Shown piece by piece: positions 45,327 to 56,166 of a stretch of 64,000 nt of DNA. Source of the DNA: Hirschia maritima DSM 19733 (GTDB lineage Bacteria > Pseudomonadota > Alphaproteobacteria > Caulobacterales > Hyphomonadaceae); contig NZ_KB899550.1 in NCBI RefSeq assembly GCF_000378345.1, positions 1-64,000 of the forward strand, written 5' to 3'. A program made the position numbers and the translations under genes. How positions within the stretch are numbered: position 1 is the stretch's first letter; every line of letters starts with the position of its first letter. Below the pieces are notes generated by a model. That model was not told where the DNA came from. It made no database searches and was given only the letters and a program-made list of their open reading frames with translations.

Positions 45327-46090
45327 AGGTTCTTGTCACTGGCCTCAACGGTGTTGTGGGGCAAGCACTATATCCAGCATTGAAGGATCGTTATGAGATT
45401 AGTGCTTTATCCCGCAGTGGTGTAAATGGGGTGCCTCCAGAGCGTGTATTTAAAGCTGATATAGGAGATATCGATACACTATATCCAGCGATGAAAGGCA
45501 TCGATGTTGTTTTGAACCTTGCTGCTGGTGGCGGGCAAAGTAGCGCTGAAGGAATGGATGCCGGTTGGGATGTTATGCTTCGGGATAACATTGTCGGTGC
45601 ATATAATGTTCTGGAAGCTGCGAAACAGTCAGGTGTGAAACGTGTTATCCTGGCAAGTTCAGGCGCCGTAGCCAATGGATATGAGCTCGAAGAACCATAC
45701 AAAAGTCTTGTATCTACTGAAGATGTGCCGCTTCCGACTTCTTGGGATATGGTGAATGAGTTTTCAGAACCCAAGCCGGTGTCATTGTATGGTGTAACTA
45801 AGCTATTTGGTGAAGACCTTGGCCGATATTACGCTGCGACGACTGATATGTCAGTGATAAATTTGCGGATCAGTTATTGTCTTAAAGAAGATGTTGCTGG
45901 AGCGGGGCGAGGGCAGGCCAACTGGTCTAGCCATCGCGATCTGCAGCAATTGACGACACTGTGTATAGATGCTCCGTCAGAGATTAAATTCGATATATTT
46001 TGGGCAACCTCTGATAACAAAAAACTGTTCCGAGATAATGCGCATGCAAAAAAGGTTTTGGGCTATAAACCGCAAGATGGGGTCAAATGA
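45311..46090 (+). CDS. NAD-dependent epimerase/dehydratase-type SDR, uronate dehydrogenase-like
   Basis: A 259-residue extended-type SDR. The NAD motif is VTGLNGVVGQAL; LEAAKQSGVKRVILASSGAVANGY and YGVTKLFGEDLGRYYA (Y-x-x-x-K) follow the pattern of bacterial uronate dehydrogenases (Udh), as does the length of about 260 residues. It would oxidise a hexuronate or similar aldose to a lactone with NAD+. It overlaps the MFS transporter gene by 16 bp, so the two form one operon. Other extended SDRs cannot be excluded, but the pairing with a hexuronate-type transporter favours the call. Confidence 0.8.
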   Translation: MSRQLKVLVTGLNGVVGQALYPALKDRYEISALSRSGVNGVPPERVFKADIGDIDTLYPAMKGIDVVLNLAAGGGQSSAEGMDAGWDVMLRDNIVGAYNVLEAAKQSGVKRVILASSGAVANGYELEEPYKSLVSTEDVPLPTSWDMVNEFSEPKPVSLYGVTKLFGEDLGRYYAATTDMSVINLRISYCLKEDVAGAGRGQANWSSHRDLQQLTTLCIDAPSEIKFDIFWATSDNKKLFRDNAHAKKVLGYKPQDGVK

Positions 46091-46124
46091 CCATGATCGT
46101 ATTTGGAAATTTGAAAATGGTCAT
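46087..46124. terminator. Inverted repeat at the end of the MFS-SDR operon
   Basis: ATGACCAT (46087-46094) and ATGGTCAT (46117-46124) are perfect 8-bp arms separated by 22 bases, starting within the SDR stop codon. There is no clean T-run, so it may be a weak terminator or RNA-stabilising hairpin. The remaining ~260 bp before the sigma-factor gene hold no recognised element. Confidence 0.4.
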
Positions 46125-46387
46125 TTCAAATTAGTGCTTGTTTCGTCGATTACATCCGCAATTTAGACTCGATTATTGAGAATTAAATCTAGTGTTAGGA
46201 AGGGTTCGAGAGTGATGAAATGACGCTGTATAACAATGTCCATTTATATATAGACTTCCATCTTAGCAAAAGACGTAAAAGAAAATCGAATAATAAAAAT
46301 ATTTTTGCTAAAATCCTGCAATGACTTGTAATTAAAGTACATTTACTGTTCAGTTTAAGTGGTTGTTCCAATTTTAAACGTGTTTCT

Positions 46388-46990
46388 ATGTCTAAAATAT
46401 TTGAAGCATTCGTAGAAAACGAGAAAGCAATACGACGTGTTATTGCTAAGTATTGTTTTCGTGTAGAAGACATAGATGAGTTGGCACAAGAGACGTTTTT
46501 GAAATGCTATGTGGCGGAGTTAAAATCCGACATAAAAGAACCAAAGCATTTTCTCTTAAGAGCCGCGAAAAATACGGCTCTGAGTGAAATAAAGAAAAAA
46601 CGAAATACAATTACTGATTTTTTTGAAGATTCTGCCGACAAAGACGTCTTTATAGATGAAGGAGAGGTATCTCCCGAAATAAGGTATGATGGACGTCGGA
46701 AATTGGCGATTTTAGCTATGGCGATTGGAAGTCTCCCCAAAGACGATCAACAAATGCTTTTAATGAAGAAAATGGAAAACCTAAAATTCAAACAGATAGC
46801 TGTAAGAATGGATGTATCTGTGAGTACAGTTCAAAAGCGTGTTGCCGCAGCTCTTTTGCACTGTAATGCTTTTTTTCGGTCACGTGGTTATGACCCCATT
46901 GAGTTCGGAGGAAAAAGTACTGAGCCGAAATCAGGCCAAATTTCTAATTTAATGTTGCATTCAAAAAAACGGGACAAAGACAATGACTGA
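46388..46990 (+). CDS. ECF RNA polymerase sigma factor, FecI-like
   Basis: A 200-residue ECF sigma factor. Region 2 covers FVENEKAIRRVIAKYCFRVEDIDELAQETFLKCY, and region 4 covers LPKDDQQMLLMKKMENLKFKQIAVRMDVSVSTVQKRVAAALLHC, with a helix-turn-helix at the end. Family assignment to the FecI type rests on the following FecR gene, which it overlaps by 8 bp, and the TonB receptor with an STN domain downstream. It should direct transcription of the receptor gene after an outer-membrane signal. The C-terminal ~30 residues are a polar tail. Confidence 0.92.
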   Translation: MSKIFEAFVENEKAIRRVIAKYCFRVEDIDELAQETFLKCYVAELKSDIKEPKHFLLRAAKNTALSEIKKKRNTITDFFEDSADKDVFIDEGEVSPEIRYDGRRKLAILAMAIGSLPKDDQQMLLMKKMENLKFKQIAVRMDVSVSTVQKRVAAALLHCNAFFRSRGYDPIEFGGKSTEPKSGQISNLMLHSKKRDKDND

Positions 46991-48045
46991 CCCGCGCAAT
47001 GTAATTGATTTTCCAGATATCCAAAACGCTGAGGCAGAAGCGGCTGAATGGATTATGAAATTTGAAGAAGGTGAGAAGTCCGCTACCGATATTGTGGAAT
47101 TTCAAGCTTGGTTGGCCAAAGGAGAGCATTACCGCGAAGCTTATCAGAGGCTTGCAGCTTTATGGGGAGCGTTGGATCAACTCGAAGAATTTGAAGATAT
47201 ATCTCACTCCGCTGAACGAACCTCGAAAAACACAGGATCAAATAGTCCATTTTTGATGTCTCGACGGGCGGGAGTGTTGGGAATGGCTGCTTCGGTCGCA
47301 TTTGCCGTTGTGGCGGGAACATACTGGTTTTCTAAAGAGCAGACCGACCCAAATTACTACGTCTCTTATGCAACGCAAATTGGAGAGAGGCAAACAATTG
47401 AACTCCCAGATGGTTCGAATATTGAACTGAACACAGATACCAAAGTTGATGTTGAATTCACCAAACAAGATAGATTGGTACATCTTGTCAAAGGTGAGGC
47501 CTTCTTTGAGGTTGAATCTAATCCTGAAAAGCCTTTCACCGTTTTGGCCAATGGTGGAGCAGTAAAGGCTGTGGGAACAGCTTTTACCGTGAGATTGAAG
47601 GAAGAAAAAATAAACGTCACAGTCACTGAAGGGCGGGTGGCCCTATTTGGTGCGGAAGATAATTTATCAGGTATTCATCCAAATTCTTACAAACCAAAAA
47701 TGGATGAAAATTCCATTCTTCAAGTTACGGCTGGCCAACAGGTTGTTTTTAGGAAGAACATAGAAAAACTAGAACATATTCAGCCTGCCGTGCTAAAGCG
47801 CAAATTGTCTTGGAGGGAAGGTGTTCTAGCTTTTTCAGGCGACCCTTTGAAAGAAATGGTGGATGAAGTTTCCCGCTATACAGATAGATATCGAAGGAGA
47901 TGAACTCCAGTCTTTCCCAGTAGCCGGTTATTTTGAGGCTGGTGAGGTCGAGTCGATGTTAGAGGCTCTAACATTGATGGCGGATATTGATGTTCAGTAT
48001 ATCCACTCAAAACACATTGTATTGAAAGCAAAGGAACCACGTTAA
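46983..48045 (+). pseudogene. FecR-type anti-sigma regulator, frameshifted near its C-terminus
   Basis: The first frame (46983-47903) encodes an N-terminal cytoplasmic domain (AAEWIMKFEEGEKSATDIVEFQAWLAKGEHYREAYQRLAALW), a membrane helix at about residues 98-116, and the periplasmic FecR domain (QTIELPDGSNIELNTDTKVDVEF, HLVKGEAFFEVESNPEKPFTVLANGGAVKAVGTAFTVR). It reaches EVSRYTD and then ends in RYRRR. The expected continuation IDIEGDELQSFPVAGYFEAGEVESMLEAL is intact in the +1 frame and runs to a stop at 48045. So one frameshift lies at about 47883-47890. The lost part is the domain that contacts the receptor's STN domain. A sequencing error, a real mutation, or a functional truncated FecR are all possible. 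Confidence 0.85.
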
Positions 48046-48112
48046 TTAGGGGGGGATTCAATATAAAAATTCAGCAAAAATAGCTGATTGAATAAAAAAG
48101 GGAGGAATTTTT

Positions 48113-48178
48113 ATGTCTTTTGAAAGTTGGGAAGTCTTCAATTGTAAGACCGGTGTGAAAATCACATCCGCGTGCTGA
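48113..48178 (+). CDS. Possible 21-codon leader peptide coupled to the TonB receptor start
   Basis: An ATG at 48113 follows a strong ribosome site (GGGAGGAA, with a 5-base T run before the ATG) and opens a 21-codon ORF (MSFESWEVFNC...ITSAC) that stops at 48176-48178. Its stop overlaps the GTG start (48172) used for the STN-TonB receptor, which has no ribosome site of its own. That geometry fits a translated leader with re-initiation at the receptor gene. Alternatively the ATG is the original receptor start, and a single frameshift at about 48170 separates it from the rest. Confidence 0.4.
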   Translation: MSFESWEVFNCKTGVKITSAC

Positions 48179-51100
48179 CCAAAAAGATAACAGGTGAGGA
48201 AACAGTAAGGTTATTGCGTGGTTTATCGTGTAGTTGCTTCGCAGCTGTAACGATGAGTTGCTTGTCTATCACTGAAGCTCAAGTCTTAGATGATCGATAT
48301 GAATTTCATATCGAAACGGGGACGCTCGGCTCAGCGTTAGAGGAAATTGTCGATACGACAAACGTCCAATTGCTTTACCCTCATGATTTGTCAAATGCTG
48401 AAGGGTTTAACCCTGTCATTGGGCAGTACACAATTGAAGAAGCTTTGGAGGTTCTTCTAGGCGGAACCAACTTTTCCGGCGGTCTGACAACGAGGGGAGT
48501 GATCGTGATCGCTCTCAATAGTAGCGGACAACCGCAGGAAGAGGAGGCGAATATGCCAATCGGGGAAAAAAGCAAGCGCAACGCGTTGTATGCTGGAGCA
48601 GCAGCGGCTGCTTTGGTTTTGGGTAACCAACAGGCTTTAGCACAAGATGAGGCTGAGGTCGTTCAGCAGGATGAAAGCCGGACAATGGACACCATCGTGG
48701 TGACGGGTATCCGCAAATCATTGACAGATGCTGCAGCTATTAAACGCAATTCAGATGGTGTTGTAGATGCCATTTCTGCTGAAGATATCGGTAAATTTCC
48801 AGATACTAATCTGGCTGAATCACTCCAGCGTATCACAGGTGTGTCTATAGATCGTTCAAACGGAGAAGGAAATCAGATCACTGTTCGCGGTCTAGGGCCG
48901 AGTTTCAATTTAGTGACGCTAAATGGGCGCCAAATGCCTAAAGCATCGACACAAGCTGATGTGAACATTAACCGAGGTTTCAATTTTCGAGATGTTTCAT
49001 CAGAGATGGTGTCCGGTGTTCATGTGATGAAAACAGGGCGCGCTGACATTGTTTCTGGTGGAATGGGTGCGACCGTTGATGTTGTTACGGCCAAACCGCT
49101 TGAGCTTGGTGAGCGTAAAATTTCACTTAGTGCGAAAGGCGTCATGGATACAACGAATGAAGTGGGTGACGATGTAACGCCTGAATTGTTTGGGCTGTAT
49201 AATGATGTCTTTTTAAACGGCAAACTTGGCGTTTTGTTATCTGCATCTCACGCGGAACGAAATAGCCGTGTTGAAATTGTAAAAACTGATGGCTGGGTTA
49301 CCGATAATGGCACGGCGTATACTGGGATAGATGCATCTAATATAGATCGTACGCGCAATCCAGATGGGATATTCTTTGTTCCTAGAAATTGGGTGCTGAA
49401 TGTTGGGGATCACAAACGCGAGCGTCAAAATTATCAAGCAGTTGTTCAATTTGAACCGGTAGATAATTTTCGTGCAACTGTGGATTATGCTGGAACACGG
49501 TTTGAAGATTCCTACGATGAATTGGAAGCAAGTTTCTGGTTTGACTCTGACGCGGGCACGACTGGCGTTGCTGATGTGAATGGAACAGTGACTAGCCCTC
49601 AACACAATGATCACCGCTTGAATTTTGCGGGAATTAACAAGGTTACTGAAGTTCAAAATGACTCTTACGGAGTGAATTTTGAATGGGAGCCAACGGACAA
49701 TTTGTCTTTGGCTTTTGATTATCACAACTCAACGTCTGAATCTCAACCAGATGGTACGATCGGTGAAGTCTTGACTGTGTTGAGCGGAAACACATTTGAC
49801 GTTGACATTGGTATAGATCTTACAGGTGCTGAAGTACCCACAACGATTGCTGATGACAGTGATGTTCCAAATGGAAATGCTTATTCTAAGGAATCTATCC
49901 AGGCTGATGTGTCCGTTGGGCGTGGCCGTCAGATTAAAAACGAAGTTGAACAATTTCAATTTGATGCTGAATGGAAAAACTCATCAGATAGTGCAATCCG
50001 TTCTGTAAAGACTGGTCTGGCCTATACTGAGTTTGGTTTTGACCAAATTGATCGCTTTTTCTTTGCGGTTGTAGATTCTGTCGATATTTCCAGTTTGCCC
50101 GTGGATTTTGTGCCGAGAGGAAGCATTGCGTCTGACTTTTCAGGTACAGAAACTCTCTTTCCGTTCCGTGCAATTTACGACCCAGCACAACTGAACCAAT
50201 TAGTAGATGATGCTGGATTACTTTTCGATGTGGAGGGGACATTACAGCCTACAGTGAGCGGGGTAACTGAAAAGACTCTGTCAGGTTATGTTTCAGTTGA
50301 TATTGAAGAAGAGTTCAATGGGTTTCCAGTTGATATTAATGCGGGTGTGCGTTTTGAAAAAACTGAGGTCACAGGTGGGTCCTCGCTACCGTTTGATCGC
50401 TTTGCATTCTTGAGCAATGAAGCTCTTGAACCAGTTGCGGCAGCATCGGCGTCAAGCAGTAATTTGACCGGTGAGTATACCGAGTTTTTGCCAAACCTAG
50501 ATGTTAAAGTCGATTTGATGGATGATCTCATTCTGCGTGCATCATATAGCAGGACAATTTCTAGAAGTGATTTGGGGCTATTGGCAGCCGGTGTTCGTCT
50601 AGTGGATGCACGTCCAGGAGGACCATTCACTGCTGAAACGGGTGACCCAGGGCTGCTTCCATTCTCGTCCAATAATGTCGACTTGTCTGTTGAATGGTAT
50701 TATGGCGACCGCGGATTGCTTGGGGCAGGAGAAGGAAGTTATTTCTCAACCGGTTTCTTCAAAAAATACGTGGATAACTTTATAGGCGTGACAGCTGTTG
50801 AAAGACCTGTGCTTGGCGCTGGCGGTCAACCGTTTACAGACCCATCAGTAGACGGTGGGCGGCCAGGATGTCCGGATAGCACAGGTCAAAATGATGCTTG
50901 TCTGTCTCAACCAACTGACCCGCAAATCATTTTTGACGTGCTAACGCCCCAAAATCTTGAATCTGCAGAGATCAATGGTTTTGAAATCGCACTTCAGCAC
51001 ATTATCGGTGAGTCTGGTTTTGGGTTCATTGCGAATGCTACATTTGTGGATAGTGACGCAAAATATGATATTTTCTCGTTTAATCAGTCCGTTGCTCTTG

Positions 51101-51420
51101 AAGGGCTTAGTGATTCAGCAAATTTGGTTGCCTTCTATGACAAATACGGTTTCCAAGCGAGAGTGGCATACAATTGGAGAGACGAATTCCTTCTCCAACA
51201 AAACCAATTTCACAGCGCTGCAGAACCTGTTTTTGTGAAGGCGTATGGGCAAGTTGATGTCAGCGCGAGTTACGACATCAATGAAAACTTCTCGGTTTTC
51301 CTTGAAGGGCTAAACCTAACGGATGAAAACATATTCCAGCACGGGCGTTTTGAGAATCAATTCTTAAAAGCTGAAAGATCTGGTCCACGCTATAATTTCG
51401 GTGTGCGAGCAACATTTTGA
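48172..51420 (+). CDS. TonB-dependent receptor with N-terminal STN domain and internal second signal peptide
   Basis: A 1082-residue receptor from a GTG start. Residues 1-37 resemble a signal sequence, 42-115 are an STN (secretin/TonB N-terminal) signalling domain (YEFHIETGTLGSALEEIVDTT), and 128-158 look like a second complete signal peptide ending ALAQ. The plug begins near 171 with the phrase DTIVVTGIRKSLTDAAAIKRNSDGVVDAISAEDIGKFPDTNLAESLQRITGVSIDR, diagnostic of the Xanthomonas/Caulobacter-type TonB receptors. The beta-barrel runs to a terminal phenylalanine (FGVRATF). These receptors import carbohydrates or other complex substrates. With the sigma factor and FecR upstream it forms a cell-surface signalling system. 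An internal ATG with a strong ribosome site at 48553 could make a receptor without the STN domain. Confidence 0.9.
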   Translation: MLTKKITGEETVRLLRGLSCSCFAAVTMSCLSITEAQVLDDRYEFHIETGTLGSALEEIVDTTNVQLLYPHDLSNAEGFNPVIGQYTIEEALEVLLGGTNFSGGLTTRGVIVIALNSSGQPQEEEANMPIGEKSKRNALYAGAAAAALVLGNQQALAQDEAEVVQQDESRTMDTIVVTGIRKSLTDAAAIKRNSDGVVDAISAEDIGKFPDTNLAESLQRITGVSIDRSNGEGNQITVRGLGPSFNLVTLNGRQMPKASTQADVNINRGFNFRDVSSEMVSGVHVMKTGRADIVSGGMGATVDVVTAKPLELGERKISLSAKGVMDTTNEVGDDVTPELFGLYNDVFLNGKLGVLLSASHAERNSRVEIVKTDGWVTDNGTAYTGIDASNIDRTRNPDGIFFVPRNWVLNVGDHKRERQNYQAVVQFEPVDNFRATVDYAGTRFEDSYDELEASFWFDSDAGTTGVADVNGTVTSPQHNDHRLNFAGINKVTEVQNDSYGVNFEWEPTDNLSLAFDYHNSTSESQPDGTIGEVLTVLSGNTFDVDIGIDLTGAEVPTTIADDSDVPNGNAYSKESIQADVSVGRGRQIKNEVEQFQFDAEWKNSSDSAIRSVKTGLAYTEFGFDQIDRFFFAVVDSVDISSLPVDFVPRGSIASDFSGTETLFPFRAIYDPAQLNQLVDDAGLLFDVEGTLQPTVSGVTEKTLSGYVSVDIEEEFNGFPVDINAGVRFEKTEVTGGSSLPFDRFAFLSNEALEPVAAASASSSNLTGEYTEFLPNLDVKVDLMDDLILRASYSRTISRSDLGLLAAGVRLVDARPGGPFTAETGDPGLLPFSSNNVDLSVEWYYGDRGLLGAGEGSYFSTGFFKKYVDNFIGVTAVERPVLGAGGQPFTDPSVDGGRPGCPDSTGQNDACLSQPTDPQIIFDVLTPQNLESAEINGFEIALQHIIGESGFGFIANATFVDSDAKYDIFSFNQSVALEGLSDSANLVAFYDKYGFQARVAYNWRDEFLLQQNQFHSAAEPVFVKAYGQVDVSASYDINENFSVFLEGLNLTDENIFQHGRFENQFLKAERSGPRYNFGVRATF
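48541..48555 (+). promoter_or_regulatory. Internal ribosome binding site and ATG inside the TonB receptor gene
   Basis: GAGGAGG (48541-48547) stands 5 bases before an in-frame ATG (48553-48555, codon 128). The codons that follow encode MPIGEKSKRNALYAGAAAAA, an n-region plus hydrophobic core, then ALAQ, a typical signal-peptidase I site. It therefore looks like a normal start of a TonB receptor gene, although it lies within a longer open frame. Confidence 0.65.
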
Positions 51421-51459
51421 TCCCTAATTTCTCCCAGAATGTTGTTTAACTGAAATACT

Positions 51460-51495
51460 GGGGCAAGGCTGGAATATTGCTTTGCCCCTTTTTTT
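51460..51495 (+). terminator. Strong rho-independent terminator after the TonB receptor gene
   Basis: GGGGCAA (51460-51466), a 15-base loop, TTGCCCC (51482-51488) and a run of seven T residues make the best intrinsic terminator in the window. It ends 18 bp before the halogenase gene, so that gene needs read-through or its own promoter. Confidence 0.85.
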
Positions 51496-51513
51496 CGAAA
51501 GTAAAATTGAGGC

Positions 51514-53034
51514 ATGGAAAAGCCAATTGAAAAGATTGTGATTGTTGGTGGTGGTACAGCTGGTTGGTTGTGCGCTGCGATACTCGCCTCAAAACATTTG
51601 CTCGATCCTGGAAGCAATAAAAAAATAGTGTTGGTAGAATCTCCAGATATCCAATCGGTAGGAGTTGGGGAGGGGACGTGGCCTACTATGCGACGTACTC
51701 TCAATCAAATAGGAATTTCAGAACAAGAATTTCTCTCCAAATGTAATGCGAGCTTTAAACAGGGCACACGCTTTTTAGGGTGGAGAGATGGCAGTCAAGG
51801 AGATGATTTTTTTCATCCTTTTTCACTTCCCGTAGGTTTTCCCAAAATTAATCCAGGGACAGCTTGGCTTGAGAATTCAATGGGAACTGACTTTGCAAAA
51901 GTTTTTAGTGTTCAACCTCATTTGTGCGAATTGAATTTGGCGCCAAAGCATTTCAAAACACCTGAATATAACGGCATGCAGAATTATGGATATCATCTTG
52001 ATGCCGGAAAATTTGCCGACCTTCTTCGCCGACACAGTGTTCAAAAATTAAACGTGCAACACATTCAAGCGAATGTGGAGCAAGTTCATAGAAATGAGAG
52101 CGGGAATATCTTTGCTCTTACAACGGATTCTGCGGCCGATATCACAGGTGATTTTTTTGTGGATTGCACCGGATTTCATGCCAAATTGATTAGTCAAACA
52201 ATGGGAGCTGAGTTTAATTCAACTGGTAGGACCCTTTTTGCGGATCGCGCTTTGGTGGTGTCAAAAGAATACGAACGTCCAGATAGCCCAGTCGCTTCAC
52301 AGACAAATTCCGTTGCACTATCTGCAGGTTGGGTTTGGGACATTGGTTTGAAAGATAGGAGAGGTCTTGGGTATGTTTATTCAAGTTCTCATATTAGTGA
52401 AGAAGTCGCTTTAAATGAATTTGTTTCTCACCTTTGTGCCAGTGAAGGTGATTTTGATGAGGGTACGGTTCGTTCTCTTAAGTTTGAATCCGGCTATAGA
52501 CCAACTCCGTGGATAAATAATTGTATCGCAATAGGTTTGTCCGCGGGATTTGTTGAACCATTGGAAGCTTCTTCTATAATGATGACGGAGTTAGCTTCAA
52601 ATTTCTTAGCTGATAGATGGCCAGTTTCAGATTCTATAATTCCCATATTGTCCAAGCAATTCAATGATATCTTTAGCAGTCGGTGGCTGAGAATCGTTGA
52701 TTTTTTAAAGCTTCACTATTGTCTCAGTAAGCGTCAAACTGACTTCTGGATGGACAATACTTCCTCTTCTTCAATTCCAGATAGTCTCGCGGAAAAGTTA
52801 GAGCTATGGAAATTTCATACACCATGGCGAGATGACTTTACATACGCACAAGAAATGTTTCCAACAGCGAGCTATCAATACATTTTGTACGGAATGAAAA
52901 ATCTCAATCCAATAACGGAAAGTAGTTGTGTTGTTTCCCAAAATACTCATGCGGCTGTCCTCTCTAAAGTAAATCAGTTGAAAGGCGTTCTTCCGTCAAA
53001 CAGAGATCTGATAGGATCATGTTCAATCCTGTAA
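51514..53034 (+). CDS. Flavin-dependent tryptophan-halogenase family protein
   Basis: A 506-residue FADH2-dependent halogenase-like enzyme. The FAD motif GGGTAGW is at residues 12-18, GVGEGTWPTMRRTL follows at about 50-63, a candidate catalytic lysine is K82 in ASFKQGTRFLGW, and E351 lies in GFVEPLEASSI, where known enzymes have PLESTG. The tryptophan motif appears as GWVWDIG (272-278), with glycine where the classical motif GWxWxIP has proline. Members next to TonB receptors in Caulobacter-like bacteria are common, and their true substrate is not known. It lies directly after the receptor but is separated from it by a strong terminator. Confidence 0.9.
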   Translation: MEKPIEKIVIVGGGTAGWLCAAILASKHLLDPGSNKKIVLVESPDIQSVGVGEGTWPTMRRTLNQIGISEQEFLSKCNASFKQGTRFLGWRDGSQGDDFFHPFSLPVGFPKINPGTAWLENSMGTDFAKVFSVQPHLCELNLAPKHFKTPEYNGMQNYGYHLDAGKFADLLRRHSVQKLNVQHIQANVEQVHRNESGNIFALTTDSAADITGDFFVDCTGFHAKLISQTMGAEFNSTGRTLFADRALVVSKEYERPDSPVASQTNSVALSAGWVWDIGLKDRRGLGYVYSSSHISEEVALNEFVSHLCASEGDFDEGTVRSLKFESGYRPTPWINNCIAIGLSAGFVEPLEASSIMMTELASNFLADRWPVSDSIIPILSKQFNDIFSSRWLRIVDFLKLHYCLSKRQTDFWMDNTSSSSIPDSLAEKLELWKFHTPWRDDFTYAQEMFPTASYQYILYGMKNLNPITESSCVVSQNTHAAVLSKVNQLKGVLPSNRDLIGSCSIL

Positions 53035-53078: not shown

Positions 53079-53780
53079 TTAAAGTGGTAGATCAAAAAGT
53101 ATGATTTCAGATTCAGTTTGGGATTCTATTTTTATCTTTGTTTCTTCAGAAATAGCGAACCCATCTCCTGCGCGGCCTTCTTCATTGTTTACATTGACGA
53201 TGCCCTGAGCAATTTGAACCCAGTATTTTCTGGAGGAATCTGCCTCAAACTCAGTTGCACCATCTTCACTGAACTTACCTACAAACATGCGGGCATCTTG
53301 TTTAATTTCTAAACTGCCATTCTGACCATTTGGAGAAATTACATTGTGAAATTGGTTTTTGATGTCCAAGCAATCGAATGATTTTTGCTGATAGCTTGGC
53401 TCGGTGTTATTTGTATCTGGCATTATCCAGATTTGTAAAAAGTGAACTTCTTGGTCTTTTAGGCCGTTAAACTCACTATGAGCCACGCCTGTTCCAGCGC
53501 TCATCAACTGGATGTCACCTGGTTTAATTGTAGAACCATTTCCCATACTATCTTTGTGAGCAAGCTCACCTTTGAGCACGTAGGAAATAATCTCCATATT
53601 GCTGTGTGGGTGCGTGCCAAAGCCTGCGCCTGGTATAACTCGGTCTTCATTGATCACGCGCAAAGGACCAAATCCCATGTGATCTGGATCTTGGTAAGCA
53701 CCAAAAGAAAAAGTGTGCATGCTTTTTAGCCATCCAGCGTCGGTAGGGCCTCTATCATCTCTATATCTTTTAACCTGCAT
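53079..53780 (-). CDS. Pirin family protein
   Basis: A 233-residue bicupin of the pirin family. The N-terminal cupin contains the family's signature GWLKSMHTFSFGAYQDPDHMGFGPLRVINEDRV and FGTHPHSNMEIISYVLKGELAHKDSMGN, with the metal-binding histidines in THPHSNMEI and the glutamate in the same stretch, followed by MSAGTGVAHSEFN. Some bacterial pirins are quercetin dioxygenases and others act as redox-linked regulators; which one this is cannot be told. It is divergent from a LysR regulator 108 bp away, which probably controls it, as is common for pirin genes. Confidence 0.92.
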   Translation of the reverse strand: MQVKRYRDDRGPTDAGWLKSMHTFSFGAYQDPDHMGFGPLRVINEDRVIPGAGFGTHPHSNMEIISYVLKGELAHKDSMGNGSTIKPGDIQLMSAGTGVAHSEFNGLKDQEVHFLQIWIMPDTNNTEPSYQQKSFDCLDIKNQFHNVISPNGQNGSLEIKQDARMFVGKFSEDGATEFEADSSRKYWVQIAQGIVNVNNEEGRAGDGFAISEETKIKIESQTESEIILFDLPL

Positions 53781-53888
53781 TTTTAGACCTTTCTAATTGA
53801 AATAAATGTCCTGAAAAAACATCTACATAATTTCAAAACATATGATAATAATGGTTTTGGGAATTATACTGTTCGAAAATTTGGAATA

Positions 53889-54797
53889 ATGGATAGATTG
53901 GCAAACATGCAGGCTTTTGAAGCCGTTGGACAAACTGGCAGCTTCGCTGAAGCTGCTCGAAGGTTGAATATTACAAACTCTGTCGTGTCTAAGCGGATCA
54001 AAGATCTCGAGGAATTTTTGAATGCTCAATTGTTCATTCGTACGACCCGTAAAGTGACTTTGACGGACACCGGATATAGTTATCTTGAATATGTAAGAAA
54101 ATTTTTGGATGAACTTGAAGAGGTAGAAACGCGTATCAGAGATAATACTGAGACGCCGATTGGAACTATCAGACTGGCAGCCCCATTGAGTTTTGGAATG
54201 CAATTTCTAGGGCCGGCAATATCGTCTTATCTAGCGCAATATCCCGAGGTGAAAATCAAAACATATTTGTCAGATAGGCAAGTTAATCTAGTTGATGAAG
54301 GGTATGATTTGGCAATCCGAACAGGGCAACTTACCGATTCAAGTTTGATAGCCAAAAAGATGGTGAGTTGTCGGCGCGTTGTTTGTGCGAGCCCTCGATA
54401 CTTCAATGAATTTGGTAAACCAGAAAACCCAAATGATCTGAAAAGCCACAATTGTATGAGTTATTTGAACCTCGCAGAAGGAAAAGCATGGCCATTCTGG
54501 GAGGGTGGACGAAAAAAATGGCAGACTGTTTCAGGTAGTTTTGCTTCAGACAATGGCGATCTTCTCCATGAAGCTGCAGTGGCTGGATGCGGTGTTACCT
54601 TTCTTCCAACATTTATCATGGGAGAATCGTTGAAAGCTGGGAAGTTGGAAACTGCATTGGAGGATTTTGAAGAAGACCAATTCAATGTCTATGCAGTTTA
54701 TCAACACACACGTCATTTGTCCTCGAAAGTTAGAACGCTGATTGATCACCTAACGGCCCATTTAAGAAGCGCCATGGATGATAATTCAACGGTTTGA
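53889..54797 (+). CDS. LysR family transcriptional regulator
   Basis: A 302-residue LysR regulator of standard length. The N-terminal winged helix-turn-helix spans DRLANMQAFEAVGQTGSFAEAARRLNITNSVVSKRIKDLEEFLNAQLFIRTTRKVTLTDTG, followed by the linker helix and a periplasmic-binding-type effector domain (GTIRLAAPLSFG at its start). It is of the CrgA/YafC-like branch with a short linker helix. It faces the divergent pirin gene, and LysR proteins usually act on such a divergent neighbour. The intergenic DNA contains A/T-rich half-sites, but no single LysR box was fixed by eye. Confidence 0.93.
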   Translation: MDRLANMQAFEAVGQTGSFAEAARRLNITNSVVSKRIKDLEEFLNAQLFIRTTRKVTLTDTGYSYLEYVRKFLDELEEVETRIRDNTETPIGTIRLAAPLSFGMQFLGPAISSYLAQYPEVKIKTYLSDRQVNLVDEGYDLAIRTGQLTDSSLIAKKMVSCRRVVCASPRYFNEFGKPENPNDLKSHNCMSYLNLAEGKAWPFWEGGRKKWQTVSGSFASDNGDLLHEAAVAGCGVTFLPTFIMGESLKAGKLETALEDFEEDQFNVYAVYQHTRHLSSKVRTLIDHLTAHLRSAMDDNSTV

Positions 54798-54892
54798 TCT
54801 CTCTCTTGTTGGAAAGCTTAATACCATCTCCGGTCGAATCCTTTACTCTCAAATTTTCCCGCATGTTTTTCACAATAGTTAGCAATATGTAA

Positions 54893-54915
54893 TTGCAATT
54901 GAGAATTGGTTGCAA
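54893..54915. promoter_or_regulatory. Operator-like element, TTGCAA-11 bp-TTGCAA, upstream of the PepSY-TM gene
   Basis: Two palindromic hexamers TTGCAA (54893-54898 and 54910-54915) flank TTGAGAATTGG. An element with the same 6-11-6 geometry and a similar centre stands before the TonB receptor at 57165. Arrangement and A/T-rich centre resemble Fur or Irr boxes (inference). It overlaps the first possible start codon of the downstream gene (TTG 54906), which suggests that the true start lies further in. Confidence 0.6.
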
Positions 54916-55640
54916 ATATTTCTGTGTATGTTAATCAGGCTGGAAATTATCTCAGAATTGTAAAAAAGCTAAGTCAGAACGAAGCCTTGAATATTTCGAT
55001 ACCTTCAAAAAAGACAACCTCCTCGAAGAAGGTCGCGAATTTCTGGAAGAAACAAGCGCGTATCTGGCATTGGATTTCAGGAGCTGTGTGTTTAATCGGA
55101 ATGCTATTATTTGCTGTGACAGGCATAACCTTGAATCATGCAGCAGATATCAAAACTAAACCTCAGATAAACTCCGCAGAAATTACTCTTTCACGAGACG
55201 CTTTGCGACACCTAACTACTCTACCATTGGAGGGGGAAATAGATGCTCTCCCTCGCGAAATTGTTCATTTGTTGCGGCGAGAGCTAGGTATAAACACTGC
55301 TGGCCGCGAGGCCGAATTAACGGATATCGATGTTTACGTTGGGCTTCGACGGCCTGGCGGAGATGCGTGGTTGGCTATCGATCGCGAGACAGGTTTAGTT
55401 GAATACGAAACAACATCTCGTGGGACTATTTCGTACCTTAATGATTTGCATAAAGGGCGAGACACGGGATTGGCATGGGCCATTTTTCTGGATGTTTTTT
55501 CTGTCGCAACAATTTTCTTTTGCCTCACCGGATTGTGGCTGTTGCAAATTCACTCCGCTAAACGCGCCATTACGTGGCCACTAACAATAGGTGGACTGGC
55601 GCTGCCAGTTCTTCTTCTTTTCTTTTTTGTACATGGGTAG
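54906..55640 (+). CDS. PepSY-associated transmembrane protein
   Basis: A protein of up to 244 residues with the PepSY_TM layout. The motif KQARIWHWISGAVCLIGMLLFAVTGITLNHAADI marks the first membrane helix with the family's WHWISG, further helices are at about residues 195-215 and 222-242, and SYLNDLHKGRDTGLAWAIFLDVFSVATIFFCLTGLWLL is the family C-terminal signature. These proteins are thought to act in reduction or processing of ferric siderophores at the inner membrane. The start is uncertain: TTG 54906 opens the frame but lies in the operator-like element, and GTG 54924 or TTG 54987 would remove a poorly conserved lead. It begins an operon with DUF2271 and DUF4198 genes. Confidence 0.85.
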   Translation: MVANISVYVNQAGNYLRIVKKLSQNEALNISIPSKKTTSSKKVANFWKKQARIWHWISGAVCLIGMLLFAVTGITLNHAADIKTKPQINSAEITLSRDALRHLTTLPLEGEIDALPREIVHLLRRELGINTAGREAELTDIDVYVGLRRPGGDAWLAIDRETGLVEYETTSRGTISYLNDLHKGRDTGLAWAIFLDVFSVATIFFCLTGLWLLQIHSAKRAITWPLTIGGLALPVLLLFFFVHG

Positions 55641-55644
55641 TTCT

Positions 55645-56166
55645 ATGAAGTTAAAGACAGTAATTCCCACCATGATGTTAGCCATGTGTTGTTTTGCAGC
55701 TCAAGCCGAGACCTTGAGTGTAGATATTGAGCTTCCACGGATAGATGTCGCTGAATATCACCGACCTTACGTGGCGATTTGGATTGCAAATCAAGATCGG
55801 ACGGTCGCGGCGAATTTAAATGTTTGGTATCAGCAGGAAGATGGCCCGGAAGGTGAGGGCGAAACATGGCTTAAAGATATGCGTCAATGGTGGCGGCGTT
55901 CTGGGCGGAGCTTAGAATTGCCTATTGATGGTGTATCAGGGGCAACAAAAGTTCCGGGCACGCACACTTTAGTTTTTTCAGAAACCTCTGATCAACTCTC
56001 CAGCCTAGTAGCTGGTGAGTATGTTTTGTGTGTAGAGGCTGCCCGGGAAGTTGGTGGCCGTGAAATTCTTAGGCTGCCTTTTAAATGGAAGTCCGGACAG
56101 GCGCAAACTACGTCAGTAACCGGAGAAACCGAATTAGGCGAAATTACTCTCAAAATTGAATCATAA
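55645..56166 (+). CDS. DUF2271 periplasmic protein
   Basis: A 173-residue exported protein from ATG 55645 (an in-frame ATG at 55633 is also possible). The signal peptide is MKLKTVIPTMMLAMCCFAAQA. The mature part has YHRPYVAIWIANQDRTVAANLNVWYQQEDGPEGEGETWLKDMRQWWRRSGR and DGVSGATKVPGTHTLVF, which are DUF2271 signatures. Family function is unknown; genes of this type regularly sit between PepSY-TM and DUF4198 genes near TonB receptors, in iron-regulated sets. It follows the PepSY-TM stop by 4 bp and so is co-transcribed. Confidence 0.9.
   Translation: MKLKTVIPTMMLAMCCFAAQAETLSVDIELPRIDVAEYHRPYVAIWIANQDRTVAANLNVWYQQEDGPEGEGETWLKDMRQWWRRSGRSLELPIDGVSGATKVPGTHTLVFSETSDQLSSLVAGEYVLCVEAAREVGGREILRLPFKWKSGQAQTTSVTGETELGEITLKIES

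Follow-up and report, generated by a model that had tools for sequence, protein, structure and literature searches.

TonB-dependent transducers such as FecA, FpvA, PupB, FoxA, and HasR consist of a signal peptide, an STN signaling domain, a TonB box, a plug, and a barrel, and their genes are found next to genes for an ECF sigma factor and a FecR-type protein. To our knowledge, each receptor molecule of the known transducers carries its signaling domain unless a protease removes it. A gene with all of these transducer features, including an STN domain behind a signal peptide and neighboring ECF sigma and FecR-type genes, lies in the window, a stretch of 64,000 nucleotides from Hirschia maritima DSM 19733. 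Unlike in FecA, FpvA, PupB, FoxA, and HasR, an additional signal peptide is located between the STN domain and the TonB box, and it is equipped with a separate ribosome-binding site and a start codon. This organization suggests that the locus is probably a nested cell-surface-signaling gene with two starts, giving both an STN-receptor transducer and a plain importer.

Several described systems share part of this arrangement. FecA without its signaling domain retains transport and loses regulation, and a surplus of the free domain inhibits induction (PMC9249621). In FoxA of Pseudomonas aeruginosa (PMC11637429), receptors with and without the signaling domain coexist, as would be the case here if the predicted short form is made; there, however, a protease, proposed to be CtpA, separates the domain, whereas at our locus an internal start would do so. 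The STN domain of VreA in the PUMA3 system (PMC2729926) is likewise set apart from a receptor barrel and lies beside an ECF sigma and anti-sigma pair, but it is encoded by a separate gene with a TolA-like C-terminus rather than fused in frame to a receptor. Short VreA-like STN proteins (L160, L161, and L164; 203- to 280-aa class) with a non-receptor C-terminus also occur near fecR in other genomes. In-frame internal starts that yield N-terminal proteoforms are known in bacteria, and two-start genes such as SsaQ and ClpB combine one frame, two starts, and two roles (PMC11005335), as the window gene presumably does. Here, in contrast, each predicted product would have its own export signal, and the shorter one would lack a whole signaling domain. 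In the literature that we searched on internal starts, internal signal peptides, and proteoforms of TonB receptors, which lay mostly outside subscription papers and preprints, this arrangement was not found.

The window open reading frame (ORF) reads, in order, as signal peptide 1, an STN domain, a 12-codon linker, the second signal peptide, a TonB box, a plug, and a barrel (Table 1). The receptor part runs from residue 172 to the last residue and belongs fully to the TonB-Xanth-Caul family (NCBIfam TIGR01782; 625.6 bits with a cut-off of 310, covering profile positions 1 to 868 of 868), and the Pfam Plug and barrel profiles were both matched. Ordinary members of this family begin with their own signal peptide, whereas in this gene that signal peptide is preceded by an STN module, joined to it in frame. 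The Pfam STN profile (PF07660) scored 15.8 bits on the whole window protein, under its cut-off of 28.4, and was matched in 35 of the 39 family members. An STN profile built from the family matched the solved signaling domains of PupA (E = 7.6e-15), FpvA, PupB, HasR, FecA, and FoxA. The window domain was modeled by AlphaFold with a pLDDT of 93 to 98, and a fold search with this model gave the PupB, PupA, FpvA, and FecA signaling domains as best matches. The family profile and the modeled fold make for a solid predicted assignment of the domain to STN.

Table 1. Features of the transducer locus (positions within the window)
Feature	Position	Strand	Basis or remarks
ECF sigma factor gene	46388..46990	+	Pfam Sigma70_r2 and Sigma70_r4_2; homologues upstream of receptor in related loci
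fecR anti-sigma gene, shortened by frame change near 47885	46983..47903	+	Pfam FecR, 78.4 bits
Conserved FecR C-terminal part in other frame (DIDIEGDELQSFPVAGYFEAGEVESMLEAL...KEPR)	47881..48045	+	Three-frame translation
21-codon leader ORF with strong Shine-Dalgarno sequence; TGA stop overlaps GTG 48172 (GTGcTGA)	48113..48178	+	
TonB-dependent receptor ORF	48172-51420	+	1082 residues, intact, GTG start
Putative long-form start and signal peptide 1 (to TEA/Q, residue 36)	48172..48279	+	Sequence
STN signaling domain, about residues 40-115	48289..48516	+	Profiles, model, fold search
Internal Shine-Dalgarno sequence GAGGAGG, 5 nt before ATG	48541..48547	+	Duplex energy -12.0
Putative internal start codon ATG (GTG in half of relatives), residue 128	48553..48555	+	Conservation
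Second signal peptide, residues 128-157, MPIGEKSKRNALYAGAAAAALVLGNQQALA/Q, cleavage site ALA/Q	48553..48642	+	Alignment, hydrophobicity
TonB box DTIVVTG	48688..48708	+	Sequence, aligned position
Complete TonB-dependent receptor (plug and barrel), TIGR01782 type, from residue 172	48685..51417	+	NCBIfam
Tryptophan-halogenase-family gene, adjoining receptor	51514..53034	+	Pfam Trp_halogenase, 375 bits

A profile of the STN domain plus second signal peptide was searched against 398 genomes of the order (apparently GTDB Caulobacterales), with a second filter at the protein level for a signal-peptide-like segment behind the STN domain. This gave 65 automatic calls, 11 of which were low scoring and were discarded by eye as false—the segment picked was a TonB-box strand or an Ala/Gly-rich linker, and 4 of the 11 had no start codon. 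The remaining 54 STN receptors carry the second signal peptide at the same place, while other STN receptors in the order have plain linkers instead. The A-Q at the end of the segment is invariant in a 39-member alignment. As a class, the segments match the signal peptides of ordinary receptors in length, in charge at the N terminus, and in the hydrophobicity of the core. Three genes beyond the set used for statistics (L166, L167, and L130) agree with the pattern; a class-wide search of 385 genomes added few, with L166 and L167 as two clear cases outside the order. The original prediction of a full second signal peptide between the STN and plug domains is borne out, and the pattern, whose absence from relatives would have counted against it, is present in them. 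Chance or an assembly fusion is ruled out by the 54 relatives, which come from several families, and the three additional genes.

The 54 genes are not independent: several of them are closely related, and L024 is a decayed copy. In L024 (genome G009), pieces of the sigma and fecR genes are merged in one ORF and the receptor ends abruptly after the plug. Named carriers include Parvularculaceae and Hyphomonadaceae bins, Robiginitomaculum, and Marinicaulis, and a scan of organism names returned nine loci, from eight metagenome bins and Marinicaulis flavus; the genome of the latter (strain SY-3-19, a cultured isolate) has five such genes. Three are present in the window genome: the window gene itself, L021 on contig C2, and L077 on contig C6. 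The fourth STN receptor of this genome, L023, has no such segment. Together with L022, also from the window's genus, L023 has an STN domain of the same group and no second signal peptide, so that the two are natural controls in closely related genomes. Where loci with long flanks were read, segment-bearing receptors are preceded by genes for an ECF sigma factor and FecR.

The first residue of the second signal peptide is encoded by ATG in 27 of the 54 genes and by GTG in the other 27, and this codon sits 17 to 33 codons (median, 26) ahead of the AxA motif in all of them. ATG and GTG have been exchanged at least 12 to 13 times on the receptor and STN trees. GTG makes up only 27% of the valine codons in these genes, so a valine conserved for its role in the protein would not be encoded by GTG every time. 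Upstream of the internal start, GGAGG is found in 31 of the 54 genes, GGAG or GAGG in 18, and neither in 5. The GGAGG motif is spaced 5, 8, or 10 nt from the start and can take either of two codon phases (in 22 and 9 genes), translated as R-E-x or S-G-G, which argues that the nucleotides rather than the residues are conserved. An anti-Shine-Dalgarno duplex energy of -9.7 or lower was reached by 57% of segment genes; the proportion was 10% among 42 STN receptors that lack the segment and 9% in the two remaining frames of the segment genes' own linkers. Resampling of synonymous codons gave a combined P of 2e-11 (over 54 non-independent genes), compared with a median P of 0.61 for control in-frame ATG/GTG codons; gene by gene the effect was modest (median P = 0.094; 15% under 0.05). 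In the clade L041-L051, in which the STN and receptor parts co-diverged, linker dS was 0 to 0.3 in most pairs and dN was high, while plug dS was about 1 or more. A conserved start codon together with a Shine-Dalgarno sequence at the internal site, as expected of a two-start gene, is thus what we found. A receptor swap can import a fresh start site, so part of this conservation may be inherited from captured receptors. Neither the strong Shine-Dalgarno sequence before the ATG of residue 128 nor the weakness of the GTG at 48172 was part of the original prediction.

The STN domain is under purifying selection, with dN/dS mostly about 0.1 to 0.35. Were it needed only as a separate protein, stops and frame changes would be expected at the junction with the receptor. 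A profile of the STN domain alone was run on 101 genomes from the family to which the window belongs and 62 from that of Marinicaulis, and all high-scoring STN domains cross the junction in frame, including two in shortened ORFs; this excludes separate STN and receptor genes with overlapping ends. Starts of the long form are TTG or GTG in 38 of the 54 genes, and the best upstream site has a median energy of -5.5 kcal/mol, versus -10.2 kcal/mol for the internal site. By Shine-Dalgarno energy, the window GTG is also a weak start. These weaker starts suggest that the long form is scarce and the short form abundant, although this is a rough guide in which the upstream start is taken to be the site with the best energy. 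Both products seem to be kept.

Since the second signal peptide opens with a conserved ribosome-binding site and an ATG or GTG, the best interpretation is that a shorter product starts here and that this segment is most likely the front of a nested gene. Initiation at the weak upstream start would give a long form consisting of signal peptide 1, the STN domain, the second signal-peptide sequence, and the receptor; this form would act as the transducer, its STN domain contacting the periplasmic part of FecR. Initiation at the strong internal site would give a short form that carries a signal peptide of its own and acts as an ordinary receptor, able to import substrate but not to signal. Such a short form would equal a transport-only receptor of the FecA kind, which is why we propose that a single gene yields both a transducer and an importer. 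The ratio of signaling to non-signaling receptors would then be set at translation by the operon. It is possible that the second signal-peptide sequence inside the long form might destabilize it. The making of both products, their ratio, and their division of labor are what we infer from sequence. If the internal start is conserved for this reason, a whole bacterial group may tune the ratio of signaling to importing receptors at translation, by what would be a portable way of making a receptor a sensor without spoiling the receptor. Annotation of such genes would also list a single protein although two are probably produced.

The original prediction allowed two outcomes, cleavage at ALAQ or an internal linker. 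Its fused module stands, but it left out an internal start, to which the ribosome-binding site and the ATG or GTG point. In the cleavage outcome, only the long form would be made, and signal peptidase would cut after both signal peptides and free the STN domain in the periplasm. A cut-off signaling domain has a proposed precedent in FoxA, through CtpA (PMC11637429), and the A/Q site is kept in all aligned members, although this is equally expected from the short form. Such two-step processing does not explain why the first residue is ATG or GTG, why these two codons are exchanged, or why the Shine-Dalgarno sequence occurs in two phases, and in a chain already being exported signal peptide 2 would have its positive end on the periplasmic side. 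Signal peptidase does not normally act on a signal peptide in that orientation. We therefore regard processing of a sole long form as improbable. Less doubtful, though still unlikely, is a combination of the two, in which plain receptors arise by internal initiation and the long form undergoes cleavage at the second signal peptide as well, giving free STN domain and a uniform mature receptor. In that case signaling would proceed through a detached domain able to reach FecR at the inner membrane, and this would bear on how transducers bridge the periplasm. The other outcome, a long form alone with the hydrophobic stretch as a linker or membrane tether from STN to plug, would fit the junction that is open in frame among relatives. 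Hydrophobicity exceeds 1.6 over 19 residues in only 7% of segments and is mostly under the usual level of membrane anchors, which is too weak for an anchor and is instead that of a signal peptide; AxA/Q, a start codon, and a Shine-Dalgarno sequence would be needless in a linker, and there is very little to recommend this outcome.

There are two further readings. One is that the short receptor alone matters and the STN domain is a fusion remnant or decaying module, at least in the window genome, where fecR is frameshifted and the long start is weak; the decayed sigma-fecR-receptor cassette of the relative L024 would also fit. Purifying selection on the STN domain, the open frame across the family, and the intact sigma and fecR genes upstream in most loci with long flanks all speak against it, and we consider it quite unlikely as a general account. 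This reading may still apply to the window copy on its own if the frameshift is not an artifact of sequencing. The other is that the short form has a transcript of its own from an internal promoter in the STN region, with the ratio set at transcription and the internal start serving that transcript. The internal start would indeed be needed in that case as well; we know of no promoter within the STN region, and among the alternatives this one appears the least probable. A two-start gene with the ratio set at translation is the reading that we prefer.

The two halves of these genes have different histories, as the separate phylogenies proposed in the original prediction revealed. On the tree of the receptor part, the label "STN plus second signal peptide" changes 14 times, with at least 12 changes forced by well-supported branches, whereas on the STN tree, which has few columns, it changes 4 times and the STN domains form nearly one clade. 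This difference indicates that the STN module was set before several receptor types, in agreement with the predicted joining of an STN module with its own export signal to the front of an ordinary receptor. A single origin of the module would be compatible with the STN tree, given its few columns. The window receptor and L021 are placed beside ordinary STN-less receptors with a normal signal peptide at the same place. The paralogues L069 and L073 of genome G330 are 91% identical in the STN domain and 86% in the second signal peptide, compared with 36% in their plugs, and this reads as a recent receptor swap behind the module. Judging from these trees and identities, the STN module has repeatedly been paired with complete receptors, with at least one exchange point behind the second signal peptide. 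A sigma/fecR-linked STN module would thus have been placed in frame before complete receptor genes, and the ribosome-binding site, start codon, and signal peptide behind it would have come with the captured genes.

The fecR gene upstream of the window receptor is the only shortened copy among the four FecR genes of the genome, the other three being full length. Its out-of-frame tail is similar to that of the intact FecR encoded in the operon on contig C2, and the frameshift could reflect either a genuine mutation or an error in sequencing. The displaced tail, the C-terminal 50 or so residues, is the part expected to meet the STN domain of the receptor. Rfam gave no match to an RNA element within 46000-51600. 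Leader ORFs of the same length as that in the window, with the same GTGcTGA overlap, were found at loci L024 and L052, and L038 has one of 23 codons whose stop likewise overlaps a GTG in the STN frame. The matching leaders and overlap in L024 and L052 argue that the leader ORF is real and disfavor a frameshift between the ATG at 48113 and the STN frame. In the window, L024, L052, and L038, the leader may feed the long form by re-initiation. A tryptophan-halogenase-family gene (L172) is also present near the paralogous operon on contig C2. Further downstream in the window (53079-56166) are genes for a pirin (minus strand), a LysR regulator, a PepSY-like membrane protein, and a DUF2271 periplasmic protein.
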